From: Polynucleobacter sp. MWH-Svant-W18
Lineage (GTDB): Bacteria; Pseudomonadota; Gammaproteobacteria; Burkholderiales; Burkholderiaceae
Assembly (NCBI RefSeq): GCF_018687495.1
Contig: NZ_CP061293.1
Location: 620,001-684,000, forward strand
DNA: 64,000 bases
Reading direction: 5' to 3'
Shown here: positions 9,735-29,370 of the stretch, piece after piece
Layout: every line of letters starts with the position of its first letter
Numbering within the stretch: position 1 is the stretch's first letter
Notes under the pieces: model-generated
Told to the model about the DNA's origin: nothing
The model's database searches: none
The model's input: the letters and a program-made list of their open reading frames with translations, nothing else
Program-made: the position numbers and the translations under genes

Positions 9735-9974
9735 ATGAATAACAAAATTCAATTACTACAAGATCCATTTCTCAATGCATTGCGCAAAGAGCATATTCCT
9801 GTTTCGATCTATTTGGTCAACGGCATTAAGTTGCAGGGCAATATTGAATCCTTTGATCAATATGTTGTGTTGTTGCGCAATACGGTGACCCAAATGGTTT
9901 ACAAACATGCAATCTCCACGATCGTTCCTGCTCGTGCGATTGACTTTCGCATAGAAGAAGCTAGCTCTGTATAA
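9735..9974 (+). CDS. hfq: RNA chaperone Hfq
   Basis: A 79-residue Sm-like protein that forms hexamers and pairs small RNAs with mRNAs. Sm1 is at [20 protein letters not shown] with the proximal-face residues, and Sm2 is the [10 protein letters not shown] motif. The C-terminus is short, as in other betaproteobacteria. An AAGGAG ribosome-binding site lies 5 nt before the ATG. A 144-bp A/T-rich gap separates it from der and probably holds a promoter, though I cannot assign hexamers with confidence. The end of hfq overlaps the probable start of hflX. Confidence 0.97.
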
Positions 9975-28172: not shown

Positions 28173-28883
28173 ATGACTCAGGATCAATTAAAGCAAATGG
28201 TGGGTGAAGCAGCTCGGGATGAGGTTCTCAAGCTGGCTGCTGGACAAATTTTAGGTGTGGGTACTGGCTCAACTGCCAACTTTTTCATTGATGCCTTAGC
28301 CCCCCACAAAGATCATTTTGCAGGTACGGTTTCCAGTTCGAATGCCACTACTGAGCGACTGCTCAAGCATGGCTTCAAAGTGCTAGATCCCAATGATGTC
28401 GTCAGCCTTCCAGCTTATGTTGATGGCGCCGATGAAATCGATCCTGCTGGCCACATGATCAAAGGGGGCGGTGGGGCGCTGACTCGAGAAAAGATCATTG
28501 CCTCCATGGCTAAGCAATTTATTTGTATTTGCGATTCCTCTAAGCAAGTGCCGGTACTCGGTAACTTCGCGCTTCCAGTAGAAATCATTCCTTTGGCAAA
28601 GGGTGTGGTTGCTAGAGAGCTGGAAAAGCTTGGCGGTAAAGTAACCTTGCGCCCAGCCAAAAGTATTCGGGCTGATCTCCAACAAACCCCTAGTGAGCCC
28701 TTTGTGACAGATAACGGTGGTTGGATTTTGGATATTACTGGATTGAAGATTAGCGACCCTATTGCTTTAGAAGCTCAAATCAATCAAATTGCAGGCGTGA
28801 TCACGGTTGGACTCTTTGCCAAAGAAAAAGCGGACATCTTGTTGGTCAGCAATACCTCTGGCGTGGAAAGAATCGTCCTCTAG
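28173..28883 (+). CDS. rpiA: Ribose-5-phosphate isomerase A
   Basis: Interconverts ribose 5-phosphate and ribulose 5-phosphate. Motifs [24 protein letters not shown] (catalytic Asp/Glu) and [12 protein letters not shown] (catalytic Glu and Lys) are intact; the length of 236 residues is slightly above the E. coli protein. It is transcribed away from tal and ends just before a strong bidirectional hairpin. Confidence 0.96.
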
Positions 28884-28886
28884 AAA

Positions 28887-28923
28887 GTAAAAAACCCGAC
28901 GGGGTATGCCCATCGGGTTGTTT
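28887..28923. terminator. Bidirectional terminator (rpiA / minus-strand small RNA)
   Basis: Outer stem AACCCGA/TCGGGTT and inner GGG/CCC around GTATG. On the minus strand the stem is followed by six T, a strong terminator; on the plus strand the following tract is weaker. It closes rpiA on one side and the putative small RNA on the other. Confidence 0.8.
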
Positions 28924-29046
28924 GCCATGGTTTGCATGGCGCAGGCACTCGGAAGGTATTTAGTTCCTTAGCCTATAAGCACATAGATGTGCTTATTCTT
29001 AAATGGCTTTCGCCAATGTGGCGGGGCACTCAAACTGCCTCACCAC
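28887..29046 (-). ncRNA. Putative structured small RNA (about 160 nt)
   Basis: The minus strand between yggX and rpiA has no ORF but contains a chain of stem-loops. In transcript order they are an 11-bp stem with one mismatch (29046-29018), a TGGC/GCCA stem closed by GAAA (29015-29004), a 10-bp dyad ATAAGCACAT/ATGTGCTTAT (28996-28975), a weak AAGG/CCTT stem, a perfect GCCATG/CATGGC stem (28940-28924), and a terminator with six T. A good promoter ends just before the first stem. It does not look like 6S, 4.5S, tmRNA or RNase P RNA. It could also be the structured 3' end of the yggX transcript. Confidence 0.55.
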
Positions 29047-29052
29047 AATTAC

Positions 29053-29081
29053 ATCCTATGCCTGTGTTTTGACTGTGTCAA
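29053..29081 (-). promoter_or_regulatory. Promoter for the putative small RNA
   Basis: On the minus strand, a perfect -35 TTGACA (29081-29076) and a -10 TAGGAT (29058-29053) are separated by exactly 17 bp. The predicted transcription start is about 29046, at the base of the first stem-loop. It lies directly after the yggX stop codon. Confidence 0.6.
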
Positions 29082-29097
29082 CACTCCAGATCAAGAT

Positions 29098-29370
29098 TTA
29101 CTCAGCTGGTGGAACGTAACCCTGTGCCATATCTGCACCACCCTCAAAGAAGTATTTCTCGACCTGCTTCAGAAGGTACTGGCGAGCACGGGGATCGGCC
29201 ATATTGAGGCGATTTTCGTTAATTAACATGGTTTGCTGCTTTAACCAGGCAGCCCAAGCTTCTTTAGAAACTTGATTCCAAATCTTTTTGCCAAGCTCGC
29301 CAGGAAGCGGAGCAAAATCCATTCCTTCAGCCTCTTTGTTGAGCTTGATGCATTGAACCATGCGTGCCAT
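29098..29370 (-). CDS. yggX: Oxidative damage protection / Fe(2+)-trafficking protein YggX
   Basis: A 90-residue protein of the YggX family, which in Salmonella and E. coli protects iron-sulfur enzymes from oxidative damage and may carry Fe(II). The N-terminus [19 protein letters not shown] with the conserved Cys, then [12 protein letters not shown] (written [12 protein letters not shown] here), [14 protein letters not shown] and the FF residues of KYFFEGG are characteristic. It is downstream of argA on the same strand with a 32-bp gap. Confidence 0.94.

Follow-up and report, generated by a model that had tools for sequence, protein, structure and literature searches.

HRC-28-1 of Polynucleobacter as a putative free-standing small RNA gene with its own promoter

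Bacteria of the genus Polynucleobacter are very common in fresh water. The literature searched yielded no paper on a regulatory small RNA active in them. The closest described system is the HRC-28-1 motif, reported by Brewer et al. in 2021 from 33 examples, mostly in Polynucleobacter (PMC8632094). In these examples the upstream gene is PRK05408, a yggX-like gene for oxidative damage protection, and rpiA lies downstream in reversed orientation. The motif folds into six stems of which the final one is a terminator. A riboswitch was judged unlikely by its authors, who suggested instead that it belongs to the 3'-UTR of the gene upstream (PMC8632094). HRC-28-1 is absent from Rfam and a full-text literature search for the name returned no further paper. 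Searches for RNA-seq or small RNA studies in Polynucleobacter likewise returned nothing on it beyond the motif paper. Until now it has been only an unexplained structure, possibly a messenger tail. A second predicted RNA of freshwater Burkholderiales, Polynucleobacter-1 (RF01718), is listed in PMC2864571.

The window analysed here is the whole 64,000-nt stretch at positions 620,001 to 684,000 of contig NZ_CP061293.1 from Polynucleobacter sp. MWH-Svant-W18. Its source genome is a single contig of 1.77 Mb whose closest named relatives are Polynucleobacter. The small RNA locus occupies 29081-28887 on the minus strand, between yggX and the convergent rpiA. The yggX stop codon is separated from the -35 element of the small RNA promoter by 16 nt, and the 3' end of the RNA lies a few bases off the rpiA stop. 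The features of the window that bear on the locus are as follows.

9735-9974, plus strand: hfq (Pfam PF17209), candidate RNA chaperone in the same window
28173-28883, plus strand: rpiA (Pfam PF06026), convergent gene downstream of the RNA
28887-29046, minus strand: small RNA transcript (HRC-28-1), probable start at about 29046 and end in the T run at about 28889-28887, placed by fold and covariation
28889-28919, minus strand: intrinsic terminator, AACCCGATGG...CCGTCGGGTT followed by a T run, stem at 28919-28893
28924-28940, minus strand: hairpin P5, GCCATG/CATGGC, then an AAAC linker
28943-28974, minus strand: hairpin P4, outer stem AGGC/GCCT and inner stem GGAA/TTCC
28975-28996, minus strand: hairpin P3, conserved apex CATCTATG
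29004-29015, minus strand: hairpin P2, TGGC-GAAA-GCCA with a GNRA tetraloop
29018-29046, minus strand: 5' hairpin P1, loop ends CAG...GTG conserved
29053-29081, minus strand: sigma-70-type promoter, -35 TTGACA at 29081-29076, 17-nt spacer, -10 TAGGAT at 29058-29053
29098-29370, minus strand: yggX (Pfam PF04362), co-oriented neighbour upstream of the RNA, with a product for Fe(2+) trafficking / oxidative damage protection

An earlier note, made from the letters of this DNA, had described a TTGACA-17-TAGGAT promoter after yggX on the minus strand, a G/C-rich terminator with a T run and an hfq gene in the same window. All three were recovered at the positions given above. The note had also described the roughly 160 nt in between as free of an ORF, and this agrees with the reading frames observed. 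No conserved frame was found in the transcript across members, where the longest closed ORF has a median of 18 aa, and the longest closed ORF in the window's own copy is 21 aa, the same as in shuffled sequences. A hidden small protein was rejected accordingly, there being no conserved frame among members.

The comparison with Rfam, which the same note had named as a check, was run against Rfam 15. No family reached its gathering score at the locus, the sole gathering-level match in the window being a tRNA. The view that the RNA is not 6S, 4.5S, tmRNA or RNase P RNA therefore held, as none of these rose above the gathering threshold. Matches at the locus to RT-17, anti-hemB, trpB and RAGATH-12 were far under their thresholds and were rejected. 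The small RNA between yggX and rpiA is HRC-28-1, matched on place, genus and stem count. The earlier suspicion of a computationally predicted RNA motif of freshwater bacteria was consequently correct, and its description as unannotated holds for Rfam and fails for the literature (PMC8632094).

Folding of the transcript 29046-28887 resulted in a free energy of -68.8 kcal/mol, compared to -42.4 +/- 4.0 kcal/mol for dinucleotide shuffles (z -6.5), and none of 200 shuffles folded as low. The structured fold anticipated from the letters was thereby upheld, while the count of four or five stem-loops was too low, since six hairpins including the terminator were observed. P1 keeps its shape and is free in sequence. 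P2 is missing in L047/L149, which represent one genome, and in L153-L155 (three genomes) it is replaced by a longer hairpin that lacks the GNRA loop. The strands UGGC and GCCA occur in both P2 and P5, and cross-pairing between these hairpins is feasible in 93-96% of cells of the larger alignment described below (A3). This rate is lower than that of local pairing and is in part forced by it; the recurrence hints at an alternative fold.

Conservation of the fold was evaluated in two alignments. The first (A1) comprised 47 distinct yggX-type sequences, collected from the yggX neighbourhoods of named genomes and from blastn matches, and was aligned with MAFFT without reference to structure. The second (A3) comprised 81 members including divergent ones. 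In A1, 98.8% of cells were paired and two-sided changes were observed at 17 of the 47 pairs; in A3, which was fitted to a covariance model and so favours the structure, they were observed at 35 of 47. Compensatory changes in relatives, whose absence the earlier note had listed among the findings against its proposal, were thus found in both alignments, and none of the covariation measures for A1 or A3 was reached by any of 500 shuffles. A tree-aware null was also employed, in which the substitutions of each column were re-dropped onto the branches of the tree. Against this null the covariation score summed over the 47 pairs of A1 was 303, compared to -1 +/- 19, and the summed score of A3 was 1012, compared to 10 +/- 46. 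Five single pairs of A1 reached E < 0.05 when only the 47 structure pairs were counted, and no single pair did so when all column pairs were counted. These comparative sequence data support the predicted six-hairpin fold, also with respect to a null that takes phylogeny into account.

The promoter was examined both by score and by exact pattern. A score scan returned 4 promoter-like sites, compared to 4.2 in shuffles, meaning that the score by itself is unremarkable. The window would be expected to hold 0.05 copies of the exact pattern TTGACN-N16/17-TAGGAT. Throughout the 1.77 Mb genome it occurs 5 times, compared to once in a reversed control, and on the basis of this count a promoter-defined regulon was rejected. 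Across members, TTGAC[A/G/T]-N16/17-TA[G/A]NNT was found directly 5' of P1 in all 78 distinct upstream regions, 71 of which have TAGGAT as their -10 element. Between the yggX stop and P1 lie anywhere from 51 to 117 nt, while the promoter stays fixed before P1.

In the DNA fetched, ten divergent members (L141-L148, L151 and L152) have neither yggX nor rpiA beside them and occupy five other kinds of locus. Six of these loci are a site shared by a PIN-domain gene and a polyketide_cyc2 gene, where the RNA of L142-L147 follows the PIN-domain gene and is convergent to the polyketide_cyc2 gene, L146 and others being assigned to this group by their shared downstream gene. The remaining sites are single: one with azlD and a LysR gene, one with a cupin_7 gene, one with a HemN-type radical SAM gene and SBP_bac_3, and one with TctC and a gene labelled HD-GYP-like from its sequence alone, without a domain scan. 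Six genomes assembled as single contigs carry a relocated copy, and no second copy was found in any of them. Two divergent copies at unrelated loci, L151 1174-1337 and L152 1152-1313, were observed in genome G187.

The location of these copies bears directly on the published proposal that the RNA is a structured 3'-UTR element of the yggX mRNA, acting in cis on stability or serving as the source of a processed 3' fragment (PMC8632094). The RNA shares the strand of yggX and usually lies directly behind it with no terminator in between, and read-through would yield a yggX-linked transcript at least sometimes. An element of this kind would be expected always behind yggX and devoid of a promoter of its own. 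On the contrary, all members have their own promoter and ten are found elsewhere. Three of the latter (L141, L148 and L152) are preceded by a divergently oriented gene, and as the upstream gene points away a 3'-UTR is impossible at those loci. We accordingly regard the 3'-UTR explanation as improbable. Even less credence is given to a cis antisense RNA, or a mere shared terminator region, that acts on rpiA. The RNA does have a palindromic terminator and ends within a few bases of the rpiA stop, but the conserved structure lies outside rpiA and none of the ten relocated members is found at rpiA. A riboswitch was rejected as well, as the RNA terminates ahead of the convergent rpiA and no co-directional gene follows it.

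A promoter that is kept in every member, together with copies at other loci, therefore indicates a separate small RNA gene. The comparative sequence evidence supports a free-standing structured small RNA gene equipped with a putative promoter and terminator of its own. This is what had been read from the single copy as a complete small-RNA gene, and the retention of promoter, fold and terminator across members, including relocated copies, bears that reading out.

The distribution of the gene was investigated by blastn and with covariance models. By blastn the RNA was present in 39 of 101 near genomes, every one of the same genus. A first covariance model, built on A1 and run against 186 Polynucleobacter genomes at E <= 0.1, returned matches in 128, including divergent members with scores of 43-107 bits. 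When these were added to a second model, 128 genomes were again returned, at E <= 0.01. Each of these counts includes a few weak terminator-only matches, e.g. G149 and G160 in the first and G037 and G050 in the second, so that the true number is slightly lower. Outside the genus no convincing match was found in 398 and 299 genomes of the family and 300 of the order, and no copy was found on plasmids or phages. The matches of both models in other genera of the family (<= 43 bits) were, where inspected, promoterless 3' ends of coding genes with GC-rich terminators, and were rejected. HRC-28-1 thus appears confined to part of Polynucleobacter, although very divergent versions could have escaped the search.

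Within the genus the gene also appears to have been lost. In L156 (G160) and L157 (G149) a terminator follows the yggX stop almost immediately and neither genome has another full match, apparently on account of outright loss by clean deletion. More distant relatives have a short gap between yggX and rpiA with a different terminator. The apparent losses and these short gaps imply that the gene is dispensable in some species.

A further stretch resembling a small RNA, L181 1021-1178 (G139:C291:2620-2777), has TTGACA-17-TAATAT, an identical P3 apex CATCTGTG, a fold with z -7.0 and a terminator. The contig carries groES/groEL and belongs to an 84%-complete MAG, and the stretch was found in no other of the 186 genus genomes. 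It is either a distant relative of HRC-28-1 or part of a contaminant contig.

With respect to function, the housekeeping sigma factor would direct RNA polymerase to start at about 29046; transcription would stop at the terminator and leave a stable product of about 160 nt, which the 5' hairpin P1 probably shields from decay. The terminator tail and the A-rich linker would bind Hfq, and the small RNA would act in trans on mRNAs via short loop regions. Where the RNA follows yggX, read-through may supply a longer transcript as a further source of the same 3' end. A search of the genome for the ProQ domain (PF04352) returned no match while the E. coli control was positive, and ProQ was rejected as a partner. 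With hfq in the window and no ProQ domain found, Hfq is the likelier chaperone. Trans action linked to Hfq was ranked first and protein binding second, the role of Hfq being plausible from gene content. Overall, we consider it fairly probable that the locus is an independently transcribed Polynucleobacter small RNA gene of about 160 nt that is trans-acting and probably Hfq-linked.

The conserved unpaired stretches are short, namely CAG/GTG in the P1 loop, TCTA in P3 and AAAC before the terminator, and the longest loop, that of P4, differs between species. This would be unusual for a base-pairing regulator of the ordinary kind and speaks against one. A small RNA that acts chiefly through protein binding, as a scaffold or sponge, instead of base pairing is hence a serious if less probable explanation. 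The molecule is almost wholly paired, its best-conserved parts are whole hairpins and their apices (the P2 GNRA loop and the P3 apex), and its longest loop is free to change; as no ProQ domain was found the partner would be Hfq or some unknown protein. Against protein binding stand the absence of P2 in L047/L149, its replacement in L153-L155, and the fate of the GGA motifs, which are not kept and have disappeared from P4 of L141 and L154. GGA motifs are a sign of a CsrA sponge, which was rejected since the GGA of P4 is stem-bound and lost in those two members. A more specific version, that of a rigid genus-specific small RNA that holds a protein, has changed locus several times, taking its promoter along, and has been lost in some species, is put forward tentatively and is rather unlikely. 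If true, it would represent a young stable RNA regulator restricted to one freshwater genus. Trans action linked to Hfq remains our preferred reading.

The motif itself is already on record, and what is corrected here is its reading, now that of an independent gene that carries a promoter. Since this promoter is fixed and copies occur elsewhere, it becomes a defined gene that is open to deletion or expression, and the natural losses provide ready-made comparison strains.

Compared to known systems, the locus shares with HRC-28-1 the genus, the site behind a PRK05408/yggX-like gene and convergent to rpiA, and six stems ending in a terminator. The motif paper drew on 33 examples and proposed a 3'-UTR, whereas here about 80 distinct sequences were aligned and 128 genomes recorded, a few by their terminator only. 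What is chiefly added to the description in that paper are the relocated members and the conserved promoter, found here in every member. Polynucleobacter-1, also predicted from freshwater Burkholderiales, did not reach its Rfam threshold here. With Hfq-dependent trans-acting intergenic small RNAs the locus shares a promoter of its own, an intrinsic terminator with a U tail, a length of about 160 nt and an hfq gene in the genome. It differs from them in that a long conserved unpaired seed was not seen and in that its binding of Hfq is putative.
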